Assembly (NCBI GenBank): GCA_036574215.1
Contig: JAINCR010000046.1
Location: 1 to 53,156 of the forward strand
From: Caldisericaceae bacterium
GTDB lineage: Bacteria; Caldisericota; Caldisericia; Caldisericales; Caldisericaceae
Direction: 5' to 3'
DNA: 53,156 nucleotides
The stretch's first letter is position 1, and each line of letters starts with the position of its first letter. Positions 1-18,971 of the stretch are shown here, one piece after another. The position numbers were made by a program, and so were the translations under genes. Below the pieces are notes generated by a model that saw nothing but the letters and a program-made list of their open reading frames with translations, ran no database searches and was not told the origin of the DNA.

Positions 1-476
1 CCAGAATCAAGAGTTTTTTGGATAGAGTAAGCATAGTCATCACTTTTGCCACCATAAGTTTTTGCCCATGTAATACCACCATTTTTATCGAGTTTTAAGA
101 TAAGAATATCCCAACCACCTGCTCCAAACGAGGAGGTTTGACCACAAACAATATATCCAGAATCAAGAGTTTTTTGGATAGAGTAAGCATAGTCATCACT
201 TTTACCGCCATAGGTTTTTGCCCAAGAAATGCTACCATTTGATTGCGATAAGATAAAAGCATCGTTTAACTGTTTAGCTAAAAAATCCCTTACCTCAAGA
301 TTAGTCCAACTTACCGAACCTAAAGGCAAATCAAAAGTTTTTGCTACAACATTAGCATCTTTTGAAATAATATTTAAGGCGTTTGTTTTTACTTGAGAAA
401 AAGATAACCCATAAGAAGATGGTACTAAGTAAACAAAAAAACAAATCAAAATAAAAATTATAATAATTTTTTTCAT
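1..476 (-). CDS. Secreted W-x-K-T-Y-G-G repeat protein, N-terminal part (cut by window edge)
   Basis: The frame is open from an ATG at 476 down to base 1 with no stop, so the C-terminus lies outside the window. AAGGAG sits just upstream of the ATG. The protein begins with MKKIIIIFILICFF, a signal peptide or membrane anchor, followed by about 60 residues of unique sequence. Repeats then start, with the pattern WAKTYGGKSDDYAYSIQ, a D-S-G-Y-I-V core and a LILKLDKNG end. The DNA repeat period is 156 bases (52 residues): the sequence at base 1 returns almost unchanged at 157. Such repeats are common in large extracellular proteins of thermophilic anaerobes and probably form a beta-propeller-like fold; that is inference. 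The function is unknown. Confidence 0.85.
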   Translation of the reverse strand, partial: MKKIIIIFILICFFVYLVPSSYGLSFSQVKTNALNIISKDANVVAKTFDLPLGSVSWTNLEVRDFLAKQLNDAFILSQSNGSISWAKTYGGKSDDYAYSIQKTLDSGYIVCGQTSSFGAGGWDILILKLDKNGGITWAKTYGGKSDDYAYSIQKTLDS

Positions 477-526
477 CTTCGCTCCTTATTAATTGTTATT
501 TATTACACAAATAATCTTCTACTTAA

Positions 527-889: not shown

Positions 890-924
890 TTGACTTTTAA
901 AAAAAAAAAAAAAAAAAATATCCT
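890..924 (+). promoter_or_regulatory. Possible promoter with an A20 tract in its spacer
   Basis: TTGACT (890-895) is followed by 20 consecutive adenines (899-918) and then TATCCT (919-924). The spacer is 23 bases, too long for sigma70, but it consists mostly of a slippage-prone homopolymer. It lies upstream of the radical SAM remnant and the rest of the RiPP-like locus. Confidence 0.35.
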
Positions 925-980
925 ATCATTAGATGAGGGTTAGTTAGGTATGGAAAAGTTTAGAAAAGAGAAAGTTTTAG

Positions 981-1412
981 ATAAGGAGGTATAATGTAGA
1001 ACTCACTGAAGTAGGAATAACGAGTGAATTTTCAATCCCATTGAATCATGATACGAACATTGAATGGGGAGATCCAGTTGACCATCTAATCCGTTTTCCA
1101 ACAATTGTAGAGCATTGTAGCACATTTGTGGGAGTAAAAGCAGATGGTTCTATACAAGTTTCGCCATATCTTCCTATAACTGTTGGTAATATAAGAAGAC
1201 ACAAATTCAGTGAATATTGGGATAAGGGTTTAGCAAGGATGTGAGAAATTACAAAAGTAAAGGAGTTTGCAAAAAGAATTGTATGTGTTAAGGATATGGG
1301 AAGAAGCGATGAGGAGATACCGGTTGTTTGGTTTGATGAAGACATTGCAATAGATATTATAGACGATAATCTTTTAGGAGGAGTAGATGAAAGAAGCAAA
1401 ACCAATGTTTAA
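981..1412 (+). pseudogene. Radical SAM/SPASM peptide maturase remnant (C-terminal half, interrupted by TGA)
   Basis: Only the C-terminal auxiliary cluster (SPASM) region of a radical SAM peptide maturase is left. Visible signs are EHCSTFVGVKADGS, VSPYLPITVGNIRR and SEYWDKGLARM, the layout of SPASM proteins that modify ribosomal peptides. The radical SAM core with CxxxCxxC is absent. The frame opens at 981 after a TAG, with no clear start: the ATG at 994 sits behind a good AAGGAGG but is followed at once by TAG in its own frame. A TGA at 1242-1244 falls exactly where Trp would complete LARMWEITK, and the same frame continues sensibly to TAA at 1410-1412. The end overlaps the next gene's start at 1387. 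The most likely reading is a decayed maturase; recoding of the TGA is a less likely alternative. Confidence 0.7.
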
Positions 1413-2268
1413 GAAAGAGAACCTCCTTTATGAAAGAGAAGAGAAAGAGGGATATTGAACCATTACTTCAAAAGTGCATCCTGAAGCAAGGGAGCTAATA
1501 ATCAACCCTACTGCAAGAGAAATATTAGAACTTACCGATGGAAGCAGAACAATGAATGAGATAGAATTGCATTTTATCAACAAATATTTTAGAGTGCCTA
1601 AAGAGAAAGTTAAGGCTGATATTTTTAGGACTTTAAGTTCCTTTACACGTCTGGGAATTGTAGAGTGGGATGGCGAAAATCCTTTCCTCTATAAGAAAGA
1701 AGAACCTCTTACTGACGGCTACTCTCTTTTCATTGCTCAAGAAGACAACCTGAGAGATCTTGAAAGTTTTATTAAATTAATGGAAGATGTACAGGGTCTT
1801 CAAGGAGGAATAGTTTTCTACAAGAATCCATTAATTACGCAAGGTGAATATTCCGAATTAGTATTAAGGCAAAAACTCTTTAAATTTTTTGAAGAATTTT
1901 TCCTGTTAAGGAAGGATTCGGAGATAAAGGGAATGATAAGTATTTCATTACCTGCTCACCCAAAGGAATTTAGTGCTGCCTTGAGATTGGTAATCTGCCC
2001 TGAGAAGTTTTTAAGCGAGTTATTTAAATATTCAAGAGATTATCTTCCGTATTTAGCTGTAAGGCATATTTCAAAGATTGAATTTTATGAAACAGATACA
2101 GAACCAGTAAATGATACTCTCAAGAAGTTCTTGTTGGAAGAAGGATTTGTAAAAGAAGGGGAATTGAAAAACGAACTTGGTTTTGGAAAAGATTTAGTGA
2201 TTTATTCTCTTTCCTATGCTAAAGAATTTATTGAAAAAGTAGAAAAACAAAGAAAGGAATTCGTTTAA
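1387..2268 (+). CDS. PqqD-like peptide-binding protein with C-terminal extension (TGA at codon 24)
   Basis: The N-terminal ~100 residues resemble the PqqD/RRE fold that delivers precursor peptides to radical SAM maturases: IINPTAREILELTDGSRT matches the typical N-x-T-x-x-x-I-L-x-L-x-D-G pattern, followed by a winged-helix-like stretch. The remaining ~190 residues are not recognised. ATG at 1387 follows GGAGGAG and overlaps the maturase remnant, as expected for coupled genes. Codon 24 (1456-1458) is TGA where these proteins usually have Trp (EGY-W-TITSK). Without readthrough, the longest product would start at GTG 1474, which has no ribosome binding site, giving 264 residues with most of the PqqD domain. 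It is either a lightly damaged gene or one that reads UGA as Trp. Confidence 0.65.
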
Positions 2269-2308
2269 TTTATGCTTAAAGATATAATAAGAAAGGAAGT
2301 AAACTAAA

Positions 2309-2488
2309 ATGCAAAACAATGAAAGCCCGACGATTGAGAGTGCAGTAGGAAGTGGAGGAACAGATCCAGATGGTTTTATTTTTGTTATGCTTGCTGCAGT
2401 AGCATGGTCACTAATAGTGGCGACTGCAGCCGCGGTAGTAAGTTACGATACTCTTTGGATACAGGTCCATAGGTATATTGATCATTGA
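2309..2488 (+). CDS. Candidate RiPP precursor peptide 1 (59 residues)
   Basis: A short ORF with AGGAAGT upstream lies 40 bases after the PqqD-like gene. The N-terminus MQNNESPTIESAVGSGG looks like a leader ending in a Gly-Gly cleavage motif. The remaining 42 residues are hydrophobic (FIFVMLAAVAW, IVATAAAVV), with two Trp, a Tyr and a polar end (HRYIDH). The first 16 or so codons, and the 15 bases before the ATG, return nearly unchanged at 3837, where the following sequence is unrelated. A conserved leader with a variable core, next to PqqD-like and SPASM genes, is the mark of ribosomal peptide natural products. There are no Cys residues, so a Cys-based sactipeptide or lanthipeptide is unlikely. 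The class is not identified. Confidence 0.6.
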   Translation: MQNNESPTIESAVGSGGTDPDGFIFVMLAAVAWSLIVATAAAVVSYDTLWIQVHRYIDH

Positions 2489-2529
2489 TCTCTAACTGTA
2501 ATAATATGTAATAATACGAGGAGGTAAAA

Positions 2530-3096
2530 ATGAAAAACTATAAAAGTTCAACGACAGAACAGTTAGGAGAGATTAGAGGTTCTCTAATCTTTAGACCTAA
2601 GTATTCAAAATGGGCTTATGTATTTCTTTCTTTGATCATTATATTTGTGGCGCTTGTGTTAGGAGGTGTTATTTGGGTTTTTAAGCAAGAGGGATCGGCA
2701 ATAACTACCATTATTTTAAGAAGTATACCTTTTGGGCTTCTTTTAATTTTTCTTCTTTTTGGTTTACTTATTTATCATACAATGAGATATGAAATCAGAG
2801 ATGATGGACTTTATCTTGTCTGTGGACCATTTTATTCAAAGATTGATTATGGAAAGATTAAAAGTTTAGAAAAAACTGATTTAACTTTAGATGTTACTTC
2901 AAGCTGGAGAATACCAGGATATGCTTTGTTTAATGTTCCATATGGAAATAAAGGTATTATAAAAATGTATTCTACAAGTGCCCTTAAAAACATTCTACTT
3001 ATTAAAACCAGCGATGGGAAGCAGTACGGTATAACACCTGCAGATGAAGAAGGCTTTTTAAAAGAACTTGAGGCAAGGATAAAAGGAAATAGGTGA
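2530..3096 (+). CDS. Bacterial PH-domain membrane protein
   Basis: 188 residues with a clear AGGAGG at the start. Two membrane segments (about residues 28-50 and 63-82) are followed by a bacterial pleckstrin-homology-like domain: the order YEIRDDGLYLVCGPF, IDYGKIKSLEKT, a R-I-P-G-Y segment and ILLIKTSDGKQYGITP fits the bPH family that places a short beta-barrel at the membrane. Family members often appear beside bacteriocin or transport genes, but their biochemical role is mostly unknown. It lies between the two precursor-like ORFs and ends 4 bases before the next start, so it belongs to the same transcript. A role in self-protection or membrane sensing is inference. Confidence 0.75.
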   Translation: MKNYKSSTTEQLGEIRGSLIFRPKYSKWAYVFLSLIIIFVALVLGGVIWVFKQEGSAITTIILRSIPFGLLLIFLLFGLLIYHTMRYEIRDDGLYLVCGPFYSKIDYGKIKSLEKTDLTLDVTSSWRIPGYALFNVPYGNKGIIKMYSTSALKNILLIKTSDGKQYGITPADEEGFLKELEARIKGNR

Positions 3097-3100
3097 GGAT

Positions 3101-3745
3101 ATGAATAATTATATTTTATTATCGATGATATTTCTTGGAGTTACTTTTATCTGGATTTATTTCTTTTTCCCTTATCCATTTTTGAAATTTTCGCCTATTA
3201 ATTTTCTTTCGGCAATCTTTGGAGCTTTAAGTGCTATTATATTTTTCTTTTTAAAAACATTTGTTCTAAGAGTATTTTCTTTTTCGAATTCGGTCCTTTG
3301 GATAATTCTATTTTCTTTTATAATTGTCCTTTTTCAAAACTTTTTAAAGACATTATTCCCGTTTATTATTTTTAAAGTCAAAAGGAATAATCCTTTGATT
3401 CTTGGTGGTTTGTGCGGTGCTTTTTTTGGGTTTACTGAATCAGTAATTTCAATATTAACTAACTCAAATTACAACATGATTTTTGCAGAGGAGGTCTTTA
3501 AAATTGGCCTAAGTACAAGCCTTATGATTCTAATTTTTTATGGACTTATAAAAGAGAGAATAATACTCTACTTCCTTCTTGCAGTGGTAATCCAAACATT
3601 TATCATTGCAACTCCAATTATTACTAATTTACAGGGAGCAATCTCAGTATGGTTCATTGTTATTACATCAAGTATCGTAATAATAATTTCGAAGTTTATA
3701 GTCTTAAAAAAATTAGATTCTACGAAACAAGTTGCGACAAAGTAA
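3101..3745 (+). CDS. Polytopic membrane protein, unknown family
   Basis: 214 residues, very hydrophobic, with roughly six membrane spans. It starts at ATG 3101 behind GGTGAGGAT, directly after the PH-domain gene. Polar residues sit within the membrane part in two places: FGFTESV (about residue 115) and FAEEVFKIG (about 128). The E-E-x-x-K pattern recalls intramembrane proteases of the PrsW type, but the order of motifs is not that of PrsW, and there is no His to support a CPBP-type zinc protease. I do not assign a family. Its place between the two precursor-like ORFs suggests a part in processing, export or immunity. Confidence 0.65.
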   Translation: MNNYILLSMIFLGVTFIWIYFFFPYPFLKFSPINFLSAIFGALSAIIFFFLKTFVLRVFSFSNSVLWIILFSFIIVLFQNFLKTLFPFIIFKVKRNNPLILGGLCGAFFGFTESVISILTNSNYNMIFAEEVFKIGLSTSLMILIFYGLIKERIILYFLLAVVIQTFIIATPIITNLQGAISVWFIVITSSIVIIISKFIVLKKLDSTKQVATK

Positions 3746-3836
3746 CATAAGTTGATTGAAAAAATGATAAAGAGTTAAGCGAACAATGATAAGTTAAAGG
3801 AAGATATATACATTAGTTTAAAGGAGGTAAACTAAA

Positions 3837-4007
3837 ATGCAAAACTAAGAAAGCCCGACGATTGAGAGTGCGGGAGGAAGTGGAAATGAATTAGAGCCAC
3901 AGGTTGTGTTAGCACTTGTAGATTTTGTTGTTGCTTCAGAGTTTATGTATATTTGGATTTGGCATGCAGTAACAGGTGTACCGGAACCCCCATACCCCAT
4001 AGGGTGA
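3837..4007 (+). pseudogene. Candidate RiPP precursor peptide 2, with TAA at codon 4
   Basis: This second copy of the precursor leader lies behind a strong AAAGGAGGT. The 19 bases spanning the ATG are identical to copy 1, and so are 23 bases coding ESPTIESA. Codon 4 reads TAA where copy 1 has AAT (Asn), so the copy as written makes only MQN. Beyond the stop the frame stays open to TGA at 4005-4007 and encodes ESPTIESAGGSGNELEP, then a different core with IWIWHAV and a Pro-rich end (VPEPPYPIG). No in-frame ATG/GTG/TTG start near the leader would rescue it. It is a nonsense-mutated paralogue, or a sequencing error in a live gene. Confidence 0.55.
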
Positions 4008-4040
4008 GATAAATAAGTTTCTTAAAGAGATTAATGTGAA

Positions 4041-4466
4041 ATGAACTTATACTTAATTTCTATTTGGATTGATGGAATTATTTTAGTATTGTGCCTTATC
4101 TTTTTGGTAAGTGAGAGGAACCCAATTTTGGGGATTAGGATCCCTGCAACACTTTCAGACCCGGAAATTTGGAAGAAAACACACAAAAAAGCTTCAAAAA
4201 TTTTATGCACAGTTTCACTTGTCCACCTTTTCTTACTATTGTTGACTCATTCAGATTATTATGCAAAAGTTTTTAACGCCTTATTACTATTTCTCTTTAT
4301 CGTGTTGCTACTTTATATTATTTATTATGCAAACACTCTTTATGAAGAAAAATTTCCAACGAAAGTGAAAAAGATAAACTTCTCTAAATCGCCTTTTTTA
4401 AACAAACTCCTCAATAATTTAAGAAAACTAAATCCAGGCTTTGCAAAAATGCAGTTTTGGATTTGA
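4041..4466 (+). CDS. SdpI-like membrane protein, putative immunity
   Basis: 141 residues with three to four membrane spans. After the first span comes NPILGIRIPATLSDPEIW followed by KKTHKKAS, which matches the hallmark of the SdpI/YhfL C-terminal family (N-x-x-x-G-x-R-x-P-x-T-L-S-x-x-x-x-W). SdpI is the immunity protein against the SDP toxin of Bacillus subtilis, and homologues are often found beside bacteriocin genes. Here it directly follows the second precursor-like ORF and precedes ABC transporter genes, so self-immunity is a reasonable inference. The ribosome binding site is weak (AAAGAGAT, some distance upstream). The ORF ends in TGA at 4464-4466. Confidence 0.7.
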   Translation: MNLYLISIWIDGIILVLCLIFLVSERNPILGIRIPATLSDPEIWKKTHKKASKILCTVSLVHLFLLLLTHSDYYAKVFNALLLFLFIVLLLYIIYYANTLYEEKFPTKVKKINFSKSPFLNKLLNNLRKLNPGFAKMQFWI

Positions 4467-4525
4467 AATAAAAAGGAAAAAGATAATGAGCAAATAAAAA
4501 TTAATTAAAGAACTATCTTCTTTTA

Positions 4526-4554
4526 TTGACAAAAATTCAAAAATGGAATATACT
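4526..4554 (+). promoter_or_regulatory. Sigma70 promoter of the ABC transporter genes
   Basis: A perfect TTGACA (4526-4531), a 17-base spacer and TATACT (4549-4554) lie 29 bases before the ATG of the ABC ATPase. It gives the transporter genes their own transcript, separate from the precursor/maturase genes. Confidence 0.85.
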
Positions 4555-4583
4555 CAAAAAAATTTGGAAACGGAGGTAAAAAA

Positions 4584-5210
4584 ATGACAGAAGTTTTAAT
4601 GGAAAATGTGAGTTTTCGGTTCTCTAAAGTACTGAAAATAGTAGAAGATTTTTCTTTAAAGGTAGAGAAAGGAGAGTTTGTTTACATTGTTGGTAAGAAT
4701 GCGGCAGGTAAGAGCACACTGTTAAGGATTATGTGTGGTATTATCCCTCCTCAAAAGGGTAGGGTAAGTCTCTTAGGTAAAGATCCACACCGCAATCCAA
4801 AGGTTCTAAAGGAAGTTGGAGTAATGATTGATGGAATGGGATTTTATAGCGATCTCAGTTTGAAAGAAAATGTGCTTATCTTTGCAAAAGAAAAGGGATT
4901 AAAGGATGGAGTAGAGAAAACATTGGATGAGTATATAAAAATTTGGGATATAGATTTTAATACTCTATACAAGAGAGGTTCTCATGGTATGAGAAGAATA
5001 GCGCAACTAACACTATCTCTCTTAACAAACCCTCAGGTTTTCATATGGGATGAACCTGAACTTGCACTTGATGAAAAAAGGCAAGGAATTTTGTTAAACT
5101 TCCTACATGACTACAAATCAAAAGGAGAGACAATTATTATAGCAGGGACAAATCCCGATCTCTACGGAGATCTTGTAGACAAAACAATCCATAAGGAGGT
5201 AATCGTATGA
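4584..5210 (+). CDS. ABC transporter ATP-binding protein
   Basis: 208 residues; AGGAGGT upstream of ATG. Walker A is GKNAAGKST (residue ~40) and Walker B is VFIWDEPELALDE. The signature region is degenerate (SHGMRRIAQL rather than LSGGQ), and the H-loop His is replaced by Thr/Asn (IIIAGTNPD), so hydrolysis may be slow or regulated. The protein is slightly shorter than usual for ABC-2 partners. It overlaps the permease gene by 4 bases (ATGA), so the two are translationally coupled and should form one complex. In a bacteriocin-like locus such pairs often act in immunity by pumping the peptide out of the membrane; that role is inferred. Confidence 0.85.
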   Translation: MTEVLMENVSFRFSKVLKIVEDFSLKVEKGEFVYIVGKNAAGKSTLLRIMCGIIPPQKGRVSLLGKDPHRNPKVLKEVGVMIDGMGFYSDLSLKENVLIFAKEKGLKDGVEKTLDEYIKIWDIDFNTLYKRGSHGMRRIAQLTLSLLTNPQVFIWDEPELALDEKRQGILLNFLHDYKSKGETIIIAGTNPDLYGDLVDKTIHKEVIV

Positions 5211-5950
5211 AGGTTCTTTTTAAACAAAAACAGTGGATTGTAATACAGGCAATATTTGTGATTATAAGTATCATAGCAGGGATATCTATTAAAGCACATA
5301 CCAAAGAACCGGTAGGTGGATTAGCAATGGGTTTGCATTTTATTGCTAGCACTACGGAGTATGGTATCCCAATTTTTTTCATTCTCTTTTCAGACCTTCT
5401 ATTCAATGTTGAGTATCTACAGGGAACATTTTTAACGCATTTAACCTGTGGGCAAAGTAGAAGAGTTTGGATGCTAAAAAAATCTATAACCTTTTATATG
5501 TTTATCCTCCTTCAAATTCTTATTACTCTTGTTTTAATATCATTAGTTACAGGTGCATTACTTGGACATTTTGGTCTACAAGGGTTGAAAGAATTAGATA
5601 AAACGGTATACAATATGAAAACAACAGAGTTGGTAAGAGGAATAGGTTTAAACACCTTAAGGATATTTATGTTTGTTAGCTTTGCAGTATTTGTATCAAC
5701 ACTCTTACCAGGTAAACTTGTAATAGGTAGCATTGCTTCTATAGGTGCAATTTTCATAATAATGAGAATTATGGCTGACCTTTATCATACTTACAAGGAT
5801 AGTAAAGTTATGGATTTTGTTGTTCGTAATTTCTTTTTTGAGAATCCAACAAAACTTGCATGGGTCTTTGGAATTCTTTGGGTTCTCATATTCACATGGC
5901 TTTCGATAGAGCGGGTAAATAGGGTTGAAATAGCAAGTAGAGGTGCTTAA
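5207..5950 (+). CDS. ABC-2-type permease
   Basis: 247 residues with about six membrane spans, starting inside the stop of the ATPase gene. There is no signal peptide; the topology and length fit ABC-2/LanFEG-type permeases that partner a separate ATPase. Sequence similarity cannot be judged by eye, so the family call rests on topology and coupling to the ATPase. A small hairpin (AGGCTT/AAGCCT, 5995-6012) follows the gene but lacks a T-run, so it is not a convincing terminator. Confidence 0.75.
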   Translation: MKVLFKQKQWIVIQAIFVIISIIAGISIKAHTKEPVGGLAMGLHFIASTTEYGIPIFFILFSDLLFNVEYLQGTFLTHLTCGQSRRVWMLKKSITFYMFILLQILITLVLISLVTGALLGHFGLQGLKELDKTVYNMKTTELVRGIGLNTLRIFMFVSFAVFVSTLLPGKLVIGSIASIGAIFIIMRIMADLYHTYKDSKVMDFVVRNFFFENPTKLAWVFGILWVLIFTWLSIERVNRVEIASRGA

Positions 5951-6049
5951 AAGTTGTCTAATTCAAATTCTATCTCAATAAATATTGATTGTATAGGCTT
6001 CTTAGCAAGCCTCTACATTGATTGTTAGTTATATTAAGAGCACATTCAA

Positions 6050-7780
6050 ATGAAAAAAGATATAAAAGCATATTTTTCTTTGCTGTTTCACTATCTTAAG
6101 GGTCACTTAAGAGACGTTATTGTAGGTGTTATCTTCGGTATTATTGGGGAAATATGCTGGGTAATTTTCCCTTTAATCACAAGGTTCTTGATTGATTTTG
6201 TAATTATTGGTAAGAATCATTCGTATTTTAAACCATTAGTCCTCTTTTCATTTCTTTTGCTTCCTGTCTTTTTAGTTACTTTCCTTATTTCAGACTTCGT
6301 TTTAGTTAAGGCCTTTAAGCAAATTGCAGCAAAACTCAAACTCGACATATTTAAGCATCTTCAATATGCATCATTGACTTTCTATGAGAAGGAAGCAAGT
6401 GGAGGGATAACTTTTCGTCTTCTTGGAGATAGTGACTCGCTTGTAGATTCATGGAGGGAAATTCTTGTTACAGTTCCGATGCAACTTGTGCTTCTTACAA
6501 GTGCTATTTTTATGGTCAAGTGGAATTTGACACTTGCAATATTTGTATTTATACTTCTTGTTATACAGGCATTCATAGTAGCTCGTTTTAGAGGACCAAT
6601 CCTTAACTGGACAAAGAAATCAAGAGAAAAAGGAGAAAAGATTAATGGTTATACAGTTGGGCATTTTATAAGAATCCAACTTATTAGGGCTATTTCTGCA
6701 GAAGAAGTTGAGCAGAAGAATTTCTTTAAGAGACTACAGGAACTCATCAAAATAGAAATAAAAACTTTTATGATTTCCAGATTCTCTGATACTCTGCAGT
6801 GGTTTGTCTATAATACTTGCTCTTTTGTTGTTCTCTTCTACGGTGGATTACTTGCAATACATGGAAAGGCAACAGTTGGAATATTAACGGGGTTTCTAAT
6901 ATTTATGAACATTCTTTACCAACCAATTGCAACTCTTACGAATCTAATTCTTTCATTAGAGAGAGTGCGGGTAAATCTTATGAGAGTAAAAGAGTACTTA
7001 GAAATTAAGGGAGATGTAGTAGAAAAAACTGATGCAGTAGATTTTGTTCCAAAAGAAGGAAGGATTAGTGTAGAGAATGTTTCTTTTAGCTACGAAGATA
7101 AAAATGTTTTATCAAACATAAATATTGAATTTCATCCAAATTCAATCACTGCCATTGTAGGTCCTACTGGCTCTGGTAAAACGACTCTTGCAAAACTACT
7201 TGTAAGGTTCTTTGATCCAAAGGAAGGTAGAATCCTTTTAGATGGAGTTGATATAAGGGATATTAAATTAACTTCACTTAGGAAAGCAGTGAAATTATTT
7301 CTTTCCAACAACTATGTTTTTAATGGCACTTTGTATGAAAATATTACTTATGGCTCAACAAATGTAAGTAAAGAGAAAATAGAATGGGCTTTAAAAGAAT
7401 CTTCTTTAGATTTTCTTTATAAACTTCCTAATGGCCTTGATACTATAATTGGTGAAGAAGGTATTAACCTTTCAGCAGGAGAAGCGCAAAGGGTAGCTCT
7501 TGCAAGGGCATTAATACTTTCTCCAAAAGTTTTCATTTTTGACGAGCCTACTTCATCTCTTGACTTAGAAACTGAAAATAAAATTAATAATGCTTTTATG
7601 AAGCTTAAAAATATTAGCACAGTTATTATCATTGCTCATAGACTTTCTACTGCAAAAATTTCAGATAAAATAGTAGTCTTAGAAAATGGGAAGATAAAAG
7701 GAGTTGGAACTCACGAAGATTTACTTTTGGAGAATGATTTTTACAAAAGAATTAACTCTATTCTCCAACAGGAAAAATAA
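6050..7780 (+). CDS. ABC exporter (fused transmembrane and ATPase domains)
   Basis: 576 residues, the normal length for a half-transporter that works as a dimer. Six membrane spans fill residues ~20-300, and the ATPase domain ~340-576. Walker A is GPTGSGKTTLAK, the signature is LSAGEAQRVALARAL (LSAGE in place of LSGGQ), Walker B is FIFDEPTSSLD, and the H-loop is IAHRLST. There is no N-terminal C39 peptidase domain, so it cannot itself cut a Gly-Gly leader. As the last gene of the RiPP-like locus, it is the best candidate exporter for the peptide product. The start has no clear ribosome binding site. Confidence 0.88.
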   Translation: MKKDIKAYFSLLFHYLKGHLRDVIVGVIFGIIGEICWVIFPLITRFLIDFVIIGKNHSYFKPLVLFSFLLLPVFLVTFLISDFVLVKAFKQIAAKLKLDIFKHLQYASLTFYEKEASGGITFRLLGDSDSLVDSWREILVTVPMQLVLLTSAIFMVKWNLTLAIFVFILLVIQAFIVARFRGPILNWTKKSREKGEKINGYTVGHFIRIQLIRAISAEEVEQKNFFKRLQELIKIEIKTFMISRFSDTLQWFVYNTCSFVVLFYGGLLAIHGKATVGILTGFLIFMNILYQPIATLTNLILSLERVRVNLMRVKEYLEIKGDVVEKTDAVDFVPKEGRISVENVSFSYEDKNVLSNINIEFHPNSITAIVGPTGSGKTTLAKLLVRFFDPKEGRILLDGVDIRDIKLTSLRKAVKLFLSNNYVFNGTLYENITYGSTNVSKEKIEWALKESSLDFLYKLPNGLDTIIGEEGINLSAGEAQRVALARALILSPKVFIFDEPTSSLDLETENKINNAFMKLKNISTVIIIAHRLSTAKISDKIVVLENGKIKGVGTHEDLLLENDFYKRINSILQQEK

Positions 7781-9743: not shown

Positions 9744-10394
9744 TTAGAGGAAAAGCAATACTGCTAAATAATGGAGGACACTTCCTCCTATTACAAAGAA
9801 ATGCCATACAAAATGGTTGTATCTATAACTTTGACGTGCATAAAAAACAACACCAAGCGTGTAAACAAGTCCACCTGCAATGAGTAGTATTAAACATCCT
9901 TCGCTTATATTCATTACAAGTGCTTTAAAAGAAAAAACAACCAAATACCCCATTATTAGATAACTCAAAGTGAAAAGGACGGGAAACCTGCCAACAAAGA
10001 AAATTTTTAAAATTATAAAGATAATTGCAATTAGCCAAACTGCAATAAAAATACGAAATCCAAGAGCCCCTTTGATACCTAAAAGAGAAAATGGAGTATA
10101 AGTCCCTGCAATTAAAAGATAGATTGCCGAATGGTCTAAAAGCCTTAAAAAATACTTAGCTTTTTTACTTTTTACGTTGATGTAAAAAGAATGGTAGAAA
10201 GTTGAAGACGAATACAACAAAATAAGGGTAATTCCAAAAACTAAATAAGAAAATAAAGCAACTGGATTATTACTCTTTACGCCCTTAATAATAAGGAGCA
10301 CTAACCCTGCAATACTTAAAGCAGTCCCTACACCGTGAGTAATACTATTTCCAATTTCTTCTTTTCTATACAATGGCTTTTCTTTGAACTTCAT
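9744..10394 (-). CDS. trhA: Hemolysin III family membrane protein (YqfA/TrhA, PAQR-like)
   Basis: 216 residues with seven membrane spans. Conserved family features are EEIGNSITHGVGT near the N-terminus, a S-S-T-F-Y-H-S-F segment, DHSAIYLLIAGTYTPF in the middle, and YNHFVWHFFVIGGSVLHY near the end; the His and Asp residues form the putative metal site. The family (UPF0073/PAQR) is linked to membrane homeostasis. There is no ribosome binding site, but a perfect TATAAT lies 5 bases before the ATG, pointing to a leaderless mRNA. Confidence 0.92.
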   Translation of the reverse strand: MKFKEKPLYRKEEIGNSITHGVGTALSIAGLVLLIIKGVKSNNPVALFSYLVFGITLILLYSSSTFYHSFYINVKSKKAKYFLRLLDHSAIYLLIAGTYTPFSLLGIKGALGFRIFIAVWLIAIIFIILKIFFVGRFPVLFTLSYLIMGYLVVFSFKALVMNISEGCLILLIAGGLVYTLGVVFYARQSYRYNHFVWHFFVIGGSVLHYLAVLLFL

Positions 10395-10399
10395 GTTGA

Positions 10400-10405
10400 A
10401 TTATA
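10400..10405 (-). promoter_or_regulatory. -10 box placing the transcript start at the trhA ATG (leaderless)
   Basis: TATAAT on the minus strand (10405 to 10400) is separated from the ATG at 10394 by only five bases. Transcription normally starts about seven bases after the -10 box, which falls on the start codon. Confidence 0.6.
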
Positions 10406-10420
10406 CCTTAAAAAATTAAA

Positions 10421-10460
10421 AAGTGCCTAAGTCTTTATTAAAACCCAGGCACTTTACTTA
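10421..10460 (-). terminator. Intrinsic terminator of the sulfur operon
   Basis: Eight-base stem AAGTGCCT (10421-10428) and AGGCACTT (10447-10454) with an 18-base loop. On the minus strand it is followed by a T-rich tail (TTTAATTTTTT, below 10421). It ends the tusA-yedE-dsrEFH transcript just before the trhA promoter. Confidence 0.75.
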
Positions 10461-10475
10461 CTTATTGAATTCAAA

Positions 10476-10754
10476 TTAAGATATTATTTTTTCTTCTTTC
10501 TCCACCAACTCTGCAAAACCATCGTAGTCAATAAGAGAAACTTGCGAAGTATTTTCTTGAAAACCTCTTGCTAAAAAATCTTCTTTAATTGCAAAAAGCT
10601 CTACCCCTTCTTTCACTAAACTTTTTACAGAAGGGAAAATTGAGAAAATAACACCATCTTGTATGAAAAGCACTTTATCACCTGGTAGCGCACTACTCAA
10701 CAAAAATTCAGAAATTTTTTCATTTGGGCTCTTCTTCACAATTATTAATGCCAT
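10476..10754 (-). CDS. DsrH/TusB-family sulfur relay protein
   Basis: 92 residues, small and globular. The sequence ALIIVKKSPNE and LSSALPGDKVLFIQDGV fit the DsrH/TusB family, the third subunit of the DsrEFH (TusBCD) sulfur-transfer complex. It has no Cys, which is not unusual for this subunit. It is the last gene of an operon in the order tusA, yedE, dsrE, dsrF, dsrH with short spacers. The complex accepts persulfide sulfur from TusA-type carriers in the cytoplasm. AAGGAGG lies upstream of the start. Confidence 0.8.
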   Translation of the reverse strand: MALIIVKKSPNEKISEFLLSSALPGDKVLFIQDGVIFSIFPSVKSLVKEGVELFAIKEDFLARGFQENTSQVSLIDYDGFAELVEKEEKIIS

Positions 10755-17703: not shown

Positions 17704-18971
17704 TCAAAGAAACTCTTAAAAATTTTTTTAAACTCTTCTTTTACAATCTCTTCTTCAATGGTAAGTATTTTCTTATTTTGCATAACAATCTCTCCACCTA
17801 TTATTACTGTATCAACATCAGTTGGGTACATTGAATAGATTACATTTGAGATTGGTGAATGGTTTGGTATAAAATTTACGGTATTTTTATCAACAAGAAT
17901 AATATCTGCCTTAAAACCTTTCTTTATCTTGCCAACGTTTTCAAAACCCAATGCTTGCGCTCCATTGTATGTGAGGATCTCAAAGGCTTCATTTGCGGTT
18001 AAAAGCTTTGGGTTTCTTGAGATGCCTTTTGCAAGCATGCTAGTTAGTCTTATCGATTCTAAAACTGAAAGATTATTGTTAGAAGCAACACCATCAGTTC
18101 CAACAGTAAGTCTTAGACCATCTTCAACGAATTTGTTAATAGGAGGGATGAAAGACCCTAACTTCAAATTACTTTCGGGATTAAGAGAGACCCATACATT
18201 TCTTCTTTTAAGAAGTTTGATATCTTTTTCACTTACCCAAACACAGTGAGCAGCAATAACGTTTTCATCTAAAAACCCAATAGAGGCAAGAAACTCAATA
18301 GGAGTTTTAGTATAAGTTTTCAAATAATCTAAAACTTCTTGCTCTGTTTCGTGTAGATGGACTTGGATTTTTATATTAAGTTTCTTAGAAAGATTTAAGG
18401 TCAACTTAAATAGTTCTTGTGAAACTGTGTAAGGTGCATGTGGAGCAAGGCTTATAAGAATTTTGCTATCTTTATCTACAAGTTCTTTAAACTTTGTCTC
18501 TACGTTCTTAATGATTGTATTATCCATAAAAGGTTTTGAGGCATACGCTATACCAATATTAGCTCTCATACCAATTTCGGAAAGTGCCTTAAGAGTAGCG
18601 TTGGGGTAAAAGTAGAAGTCGGCCGTTGTAGTTGTACCAGTTTTTATAGACTCAATTGCTGCAAGAAGAGAAGCAAAATAAACAACATCGTAAGTCAATT
18701 TACTTTCAAGGGGGAAAATAACTTTATCTAACCAATCTTTAAGCGGTAAATCTTCTCCCAAACCCCTCATGAGAGTCATTGCAAGATGGGAGTGTGTATT
18801 GACAAAGCCAGGTAAGGCAATGTAAGAACTACCATCAATAATATGAGAATACTCACTATAAGGAGGGTTATCACCTACAAAAGCAATATTTGAATCTTTT
18901 ATTACTATATTAACAGAATCTCTGTAGGTCTCTTTATCAAGAATTGCAGAAACATTTTTTATAAGAATCAT
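17700..18971 (-). CDS. mtaD: 5-methylthioadenosine/S-adenosylhomocysteine deaminase
   Basis: 423 residues, amidohydrolase superfamily. Metal ligands are seen in FVNTHSHLAM (residue ~60), VHLHETEQE, IAAHCVW and VGTDGVASNN. These match the MtaD family, which deaminates methylthioadenosine or S-adenosylhomocysteine. Methylthioadenosine is the by-product of spermidine synthase, whose gene lies directly upstream with a 4-base ATGA overlap, so the operon makes spermidine and disposes of the by-product. The alternative is a related N-ethylammeline-type deaminase, but the context supports mtaD. Confidence 0.93.
   Translation of the reverse strand: MILIKNVSAILDKETYRDSVNIVIKDSNIAFVGDNPPYSEYSHIIDGSSYIALPGFVNTHSHLAMTLMRGLGEDLPLKDWLDKVIFPLESKLTYDVVYFASLLAAIESIKTGTTTTADFYFYPNATLKALSEIGMRANIGIAYASKPFMDNTIIKNVETKFKELVDKDSKILISLAPHAPYTVSQELFKLTLNLSKKLNIKIQVHLHETEQEVLDYLKTYTKTPIEFLASIGFLDENVIAAHCVWVSEKDIKLLKRRNVWVSLNPESNLKLGSFIPPINKFVEDGLRLTVGTDGVASNNNLSVLESIRLTSMLAKGISRNPKLLTANEAFEILTYNGAQALGFENVGKIKKGFKADIILVDKNTVNFIPNHSPISNVIYSMYPTDVDTVIIGGEIVMQNKKILTIEEEIVKEEFKKIFKSFFD

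Follow-up and report, generated by a model that had tools for sequence, protein, structure and literature searches.

The window analyzed here covers a 53-kb contig in full, from the draft genome (1.31 Mb, 109 contigs) of a Caldisericaceae bacterium from the Caldisericum group. The locus at 890-7780 combines damaged genes for a radical S-adenosylmethionine (SAM) maturase and a PqqD-like protein, two copies of a short precursor open reading frame (ORF), and genes of the SdpI and ATP-binding cassette (ABC) transporter families, and probably represents a cluster for a ribosomally synthesized and post-translationally modified peptide (RiPP). The Caldisericota genomes compared are denoted G001, G004, G009, G011, G012, G013, G014, G022, G023 and G027; statements on Pfam and NCBIfam families in the window locus cover the nine cluster proteins scanned. 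The locus consists of the following features.

890..929, + strand: promoter-like site of the maturase gene, with TTGACT (890), an A20 tract (899-918), TATCAT (924) and a 28-nt spacer; homologous modules in G027 and G004
996..1412, + strand: radical SAM maturase pseudogene, with start GTA, a 717-nt in-frame deletion (junction ~1047) and TGA at 1242, from alignment to the intact G027 gene
1387..2268, + strand: PqqD/RiPP recognition element (RRE)-domain protein fused to a putative GNAT-like domain, with TGA at 1456 and the longest remaining ORF from 1474; PF05402, hhalign for the C-terminus
2309..2488, + strand: precursor 1 (P1), an open ORF of 59 amino acids (aa), with the substitutions Y4N and G13V in the leader
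2530..3096, + strand: bPH_5 membrane protein, putative immunity protein; PF10882, E 9e-14; homologues beside leader ORFs in G011 and G014
3101..3745, + strand: 214-aa membrane protein, open ORF; no Pfam or NCBIfam family
3837..4007, + strand: precursor 2 (P2) pseudogene, TAA at codon 4 (3846-3848)
4041..4466, + strand: SdpI-family immunity protein; PF13630, E 1.5e-13; the G001 copy is 81% identical and interrupted by a stop
4584..5210, + strand: ABC transporter ATPase of a putative self-protection pair; PF00005, E 5.7e-22
5207..5950, + strand: ABC permease partner, overlapping the ATPase gene; 71% identical in G001; no Pfam family
6050..7780, + strand: ABC exporter combining membrane and ATPase domains in one protein, putatively for the peptide; PF00664 and PF00005; 69-74% identical beside leader ORFs in G004 and G011

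The original prediction, made from the sequence alone, placed a SPASM remnant at 1041-1412. This region does align to the C-terminus of an intact radical SAM protein, but the fragment begins at 996, positions 996-1046 being the beginning of the same maturase gene, and it is interrupted internally; the single-frame reading of 996-1412 is VELTEVGITSEFSIPLNHDTNIEWGDPVDHLIRF...SPYLPITVGNIRRHKFSEYWDKGLARM*EITKVKEF.... G027, a genome of the same taxonomic family, carries an intact maturase gene of 377 codons that matches both ends of the window pseudogene, and the C-terminal part of the window frame is 81-82% identical to its product over 123 aa. Compared with this gene, the start codon GTG has become GTA, the core is lost in a deletion joined at a CAT common to both sides, and a TGG codon reads TGA, so that the earlier view of a decayed member with a deleted maturase core holds. 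Over 122 codons, 35 of the 59 changes between the window and G027 are at third positions, and because the changes are mainly of this kind, the decay of the maturase looks recent. The SPYLP sequence in the SPASM-like motif was considered as a further lesion and rejected, given that it is the same in G027 and nearly the same in the Collinsella enzyme described below.

Both complete maturases, those of G027 and Collinsella, carry the CX3CX2C motif, and the only cysteines they have in common are C36, C40, C43, C78, C80 and C175 (G027 numbering). Since beyond CX3CX2C only C78, C80 and C175 are shared, the ligands of the SPASM auxiliary clusters are absent: conserved SPASM cysteines are missing even from the intact relatives, although the sequence aligns to SPASM families. 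The G027 maturase has 70 NCBIfam matches, and the best 25 of these all stay below their cutoffs, so that no equivalog can be assigned; the nearest scores include heme-synthesis, GeoRSP, ScmE and mycofactocin radical SAM proteins, all far under the equivalog cutoffs. The YydG epimerase family TIGR04078 is outside these best 25, and a weak PDB match to YydG has E 7e-5. In viral contigs, the maturase and PqqD queries yield nothing closer than four weak matches to radical SAM proteins (23-27%). A contig-end fragment of the same maturase family is present in another Caldisericota family (G013:C48, L040:6-293; 57% identity), and in this fragment the third cysteine of CX3CX2C reads Arg (by eye).

The PqqD gene, starting at 1387, overlaps the 3' end of the maturase gene. 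The PqqD-like N-terminus recognized originally corresponds to PF05402, with the gene start corrected and an early TGA added; against a cutoff of 23.4 bits, the read-through protein scores 21.7 and the genome scan gives 24.2. In G027, the first 20 aa of a PqqD protein 95% identical to that of the window are encoded directly behind the intact maturase, and the contig then ends. For the C-terminal ~190 residues, Pfam has no family and a PDB sequence search gives nothing useful. An hhalign comparison with a profile of Escherichia coli RimJ, SpeG and RimL yields P 6.3e-5, versus 0.29-0.71 for shuffled columns; this test was picked after a by-eye reading of the sequence, and the alignment has a gap at the coenzyme A-binding loop. 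The GNAT-like identity of this domain, for which hhalign is the only source, is thus a lead. AlphaFold2 models the read-through protein only poorly (pLDDT 37), and this model was left out of fold searching.

The twin precursors of the original prediction are present as two copies of the leader MQN?ESPTIESAxGSG, at 2309 and 3837, with 64 of 80 nt identical including the ribosome-binding site (RBS) region, but P1 is the one open precursor ORF in the window, P2 being closed by TAA. The leader of the relatives reads NYESP[TM]IExAGG, and the window copies read NNESPTIESAVG (P1) and N*ESPTIESAGG (P2). The tyrosine is gone from both (N in P1, TAA in P2), and P1 has also lost G13, inside the YxxPxIxxxG pattern. 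Because relatives have Y (NYESPTIE) where the window has N, the window leader, which had been given as N-E-S-P-T-I-E-S-A-x-G-S-G, is, judged from these relatives, a degenerate copy of a leader that does recur elsewhere. A profile made from the relatives detects it in four further Caldisericota genomes, G004, G011 (three copies), G014 and G022, each with E 1e-10 or lower, which is more than chance would give; the copy in G023 is weak and frameshifted. In one scan of genome contigs with the strict leader pattern, the only match is Caldisericum sp. CG2_30_36_11, i.e., G011, and the pattern has no match in viral contigs. Comparison of two taxonomic families (f1 and f3) reveals predominantly synonymous differences in the leader codons, a pattern expected of a translated leader under selection. 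A further candidate precursor, G004:C1:658681, was rejected: it contains stops and lies within an oxidoreductase operon.

The cores that follow the leader are hydrophobic and rich in V, A and aromatic residues; they lack Cys in P1, G004, G011a, G011b, G014, G022 and Collinsella, and G011c has one. YxxP is a characterized recognition motif of RREs across lasso peptide, PQQ and sactipeptide systems (PMC12710340). The leader matches this motif, and we infer that it would be bound by the RRE. The original prediction could name no class for these peptides; indeed, neither Pfam nor NCBIfam has a family for the precursors and the maturase reaches no equivalog cutoff, but the leader motif itself is a known one.

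A tblastn search with the intact maturase against plasmid records identifies a homologue in Collinsella aerofaciens (NZ_OY725717.1, 40% over 88%; 43% identical to the G027 enzyme in the alignment), and Collinsella is also the only match of the PqqD query in these records. The Collinsella radical SAM gene adjoins a gene annotated as "PqqD family protein", and both are open; the PqqD proteins of Collinsella and the window are 26% identical over the full length, including the extra domain. Directly after the radical SAM gene, an ORF of 51 aa is annotated. An upstream ATG, preceded by the RBS AAGGAG, extends it to 60 aa, MYETPEVEKMDSKTGPVPVVVNFAAVVDNVVAAVYDAVVAAYAFWYSADNDGTGTSAAQN, in which the leader MYETPEVE, of the YExPx[IV]E type, stands before a Cys-free, V/A-rich core. 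The public annotation starts this peptide at 10108 within L094:10081-10263 and misses YETPEVE, so the precursor appears to be mis-started, which hides its leader. Flanking genes of the peptide encode a DUF1648 and a DUF3784 protein as well as an ABC exporter. We take this cross-phylum gene set as the strongest evidence that the parts of the window locus belong together. The MYETPEVE peptide directly follows both the radical SAM and the PqqD gene, i.e., a homologue of the short ORFs does adjoin a radical SAM gene, the association on which the original prediction had made itself dependent, and its interpretation of the window as a ribosomal peptide cluster gains support from the same set.

The SdpI hallmark protein and the two ABC systems reported earlier are borne out by the ORFs at 4041-4466, 4584-5950 and 6050-7780. 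All six immunity and export ORFs of the window are open, and all four genes for making the peptide (maturase, PqqD and the two precursors) are damaged. Under random placement of lesions this split (4/4 versus 0/6) would arise in 1 of 210 cases, a figure from a test picked after the data were seen. In G004, G011 and G014, the leader ORFs have genes for SdpI-family proteins, bPH proteins or both as neighbors. A homologue of the ABC exporter at 6050-7780 accompanies them in each case; it is 69-74% identical in G004 and G011, while the G014 copy is broken. The G001 locus retains only a 28-aa PqqD remnant, a bPH protein, a split SdpI gene and a permease. With broken or reduced copies in G001, G014 and the window, decay of the locus is common in the group. 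In G022, a leader peptide has a radical SAM gene of the geopeptide type and an ABC pair as neighbors.

Three of the loci in relatives show additional features. The geopeptide-type radical SAM ORF of G022 (L034:6588-8312) is fused in frame to a transposase-like N-terminus, and the leader peptide, MKNYESPMIEPAGG, lies downstream of the ABC pair. The G014 locus (L014:5995-10157) has an intact leader peptide, while its ABC exporter and an SdpI gene are apparently frameshifted, a further decayed copy of the locus. In G023 (L035:6480-6730), the leader MKKYESPTIE is followed by a frameshift, near a bPH protein and, by eye, a DUF3887-like lipoprotein and a CPBP-like protein.

These observations are best compatible with a RiPP cluster, probably for a bacteriocin, whose product is no longer made. 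With damage in each of the four making genes and none of the six remaining ORFs closed, the strain most likely keeps immunity without producing the peptide; we hold this explanation as a whole to be probable. In an intact cluster, the RRE/PqqD domain would bind the YExPx[IV]E leader and present the precursor to the radical SAM enzyme, which would modify the Cys-free hydrophobic core rich in V, A and aromatic residues; a protease would remove the leader, and the exporter encoded at 6050-7780 would secrete the peptide. From the roles of their families, the SdpI and bPH proteins and the ABC pair at 4584-5950 are predicted to protect the membrane against a toxic product. Thioether formation is unlikely, since the cores are almost devoid of Cys and the maturase lacks SPASM cysteines; C-C or C-N cross-linking and epimerization are candidate chemistries.

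Several facts weigh against this explanation. No leader protease was identified, and the link between maturase and precursor comes from sequence and gene context rather than biochemistry. G014 (estimated to be 100% complete) and G022 have leader ORFs without a PqqD match or a close maturase relative, so precursor and maturase are not always found together; the SdpI and ABC genes of G014 also look broken. The G027 contig breaks off within its PqqD gene, so that a fully intact locus is seen in no Caldisericota genome.

One alternative is that the short ORFs encode unmodified hydrophobic bacteriocins (SDP-like or class II-like), exported by the ABC transporter and neutralized by SdpI, with the radical SAM and PqqD genes incidental or serving another peptide. 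Leader ORFs do occur with SdpI and the same exporter but without a PqqD match in G011 and G014, and in G004 other, Cys-containing peptides go with other radical SAM genes. However, in G011 the contig stops shortly before the precursors and hides the genes upstream; an invariant YxxP-type leader needs a reader; Collinsella pairs this leader with the same maturase and the same PqqD fusion across phyla; and the loss of the leader tyrosine in the window coincides exactly with broken maturase and PqqD genes. This alternative is unlikely. Far less probable still is that the lesions are sequencing or assembly errors in a cluster that is intact in the living organism. The genome is a draft, and homopolymer lengths are easily misjudged, but the lesions are mostly substitutions plus one clean 717-nt deletion, the six neighboring ORFs are open, and decayed versions of the locus are found in G001 and G014 as well. 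Recoding of the TGA codons (TGA=W) was rejected too, considering that the start codon is lost, the core deleted and P2 interrupted by TAA. The least credible alternative, that the radical SAM and PqqD genes derive from a cofactor, lasso or other known pathway, can draw on the nearest NCBIfam scores and on the lasso-like leader, but all these scores are far under the cutoffs, the lasso B2 protease was not found in the genomes searched, and two radical SAM loci in two phyla have the same leader type.

Several known systems resemble the proposed RiPP cluster in part. Lasso leaders have the consensus YxxPx[I/L]xxxG. The leader described here has the same spacing (YxxP part: PMC12710340), but the cluster contains a radical SAM enzyme instead of the B2 protease and cyclase: the transglutaminase-like protease PF13471 is found in none of six genomes, and an asparagine-synthetase-like cyclase neither among the cluster proteins scanned nor in the Collinsella annotation. 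Among RRE-dependent radical SAM systems, the StsB/StsC sactipeptides and PqqE/PqqD likewise have a PF05402 partner beside the radical SAM enzyme and share the W/Y/LxxP-type recognition motif (PMC12710340); unlike these, nearly all cores here are Cys-free, the maturase lacks SPASM cysteines, and PqqD is fused to a ~190-aa putative GNAT-like domain. The G027 maturase scores far below the NCBIfam cutoff for StsB (83 versus 625 bits), and the Cys thioether donors of sactipeptides and ranthipeptides are missing from the cores, except for one Cys in G011c. The maturase is similar to radical SAM proteins of the GeoRSP (TIGR04303, 110 bits) and SynChlorMet (ScmE/ScmF; TIGR04250, 100 bits) systems, which also combine radical SAM and PqqD, but the scores are far under the equivalog cutoffs of 400. 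The gene sets of GeoRSP and SynChlorMet are unlike that of the window cluster. The SDP system of Bacillus (SdpC/SdpI) similarly has an SdpI/DUF1648-type immunity protein beside a small hydrophobic peptide, but the window cluster contains radical SAM and PqqD genes, and the SdpA, SdpB and SdpC families have no Pfam match in it. In the same bacterial group, thermoacidophisin of Caldisericum exile is a thiazole/oxazole-modified microcin made by YcaO heterocyclization (PMC4603692), and G004 carries a YcaO cluster upstream of its precursor; thermoacidophisin genes are not part of the window locus, where no YcaO cyclodehydratase is present among the proteins scanned.

The data point to a peptide family for which no published description was found and which lies outside the libraries searched (NCBIfam, Pfam). 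This RiPP family would span Caldisericota and the human gut genus Collinsella, and would combine the leader YExPx[IV]E and a hydrophobic core free of Cys with a radical SAM enzyme that lacks SPASM cysteines and a PqqD domain joined to a GNAT-like one. It is directly testable, given that the genes of the Collinsella strain are intact, and the window offers a clear case of making genes lost and immunity genes kept.

In the promoter-like site ahead of the maturase pseudogene, the A20 tract is the only A/T run of at least 9 in the 53-kb window, where ~16 are expected under a first-order Markov model, and the only one of at least 15 in the 1.31-Mb genome. A homologous 5' module precedes the intact G027 maturase (A13), and G004 has it in front of four radical SAM cassettes (A8, A9, A17 and A17), with the A/T runs of at least 15 in that genome confined to two of these modules; such runs are also present in four other genomes of the phylum.

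L033:3113-3366, 6702-6947, 10388-10641 and L012:5547-5702: 5' modules of G004 (promoter and truncated maturase)

In three of the four G004 cassettes, the module of 246-254 bp is near-identical (97-99%) and extends up to the RBS of a small peptide that differs from case to case. Every one of the four is followed by its own Cys-containing small peptide and radical SAM gene, which gives the impression of cassettes exchanged behind the module. The spacers measure 17, 17, 21, 25, 26 and 28 nt, with the -10 element taken at the homologous position. In G012 and G009, TTGAC-poly-A sites have no radical SAM cassette within the short stretches read. Slippage at poly-A promoters is known from the vlp genes of Mycoplasma hyorhinis (PMC10502178). 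The varying tract lengths (8-20) at homologous promoters, which carry the caveat that draft assemblies can misjudge homopolymers, suggest a possible phase-variable promoter. It is conceivable, although we would put this somewhat below an even chance, that in Caldisericum and its relatives RiPP cassettes lie behind a duplicated 5' module whose spacer poly-A is hypermutable, so that slippage would switch each on or off, and that cassettes were exchanged behind the module, leaving a short remnant ORF from the original maturase 5' end; the window would then be such a locus with a 28-nt (off) spacer and a decayed cassette. If the promoter does switch, this lineage, which is otherwise nearly free of long homopolymers, would have phase-variable peptide production.

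An Rfam search gives no match within the window. Positions 1-480 (- strand) are repetitive sequence truncated by the contig end and resemble, by eye, the repeat-containing protein at L012:14114-16453 of G004. On the same G004 segment, 17891-18012 (- strand) is a molybdenum/tungsten cofactor riboswitch (RF01055, 73 bits). Beside the Collinsella locus, L094:12654-15590 is a second putative RiPP locus, with a DUF5969 protein containing V/N-rich repeats, a methyltransferase and a radical SAM protein resembling YydG (TIGR04078, E 1.2e-20, below the cutoff).

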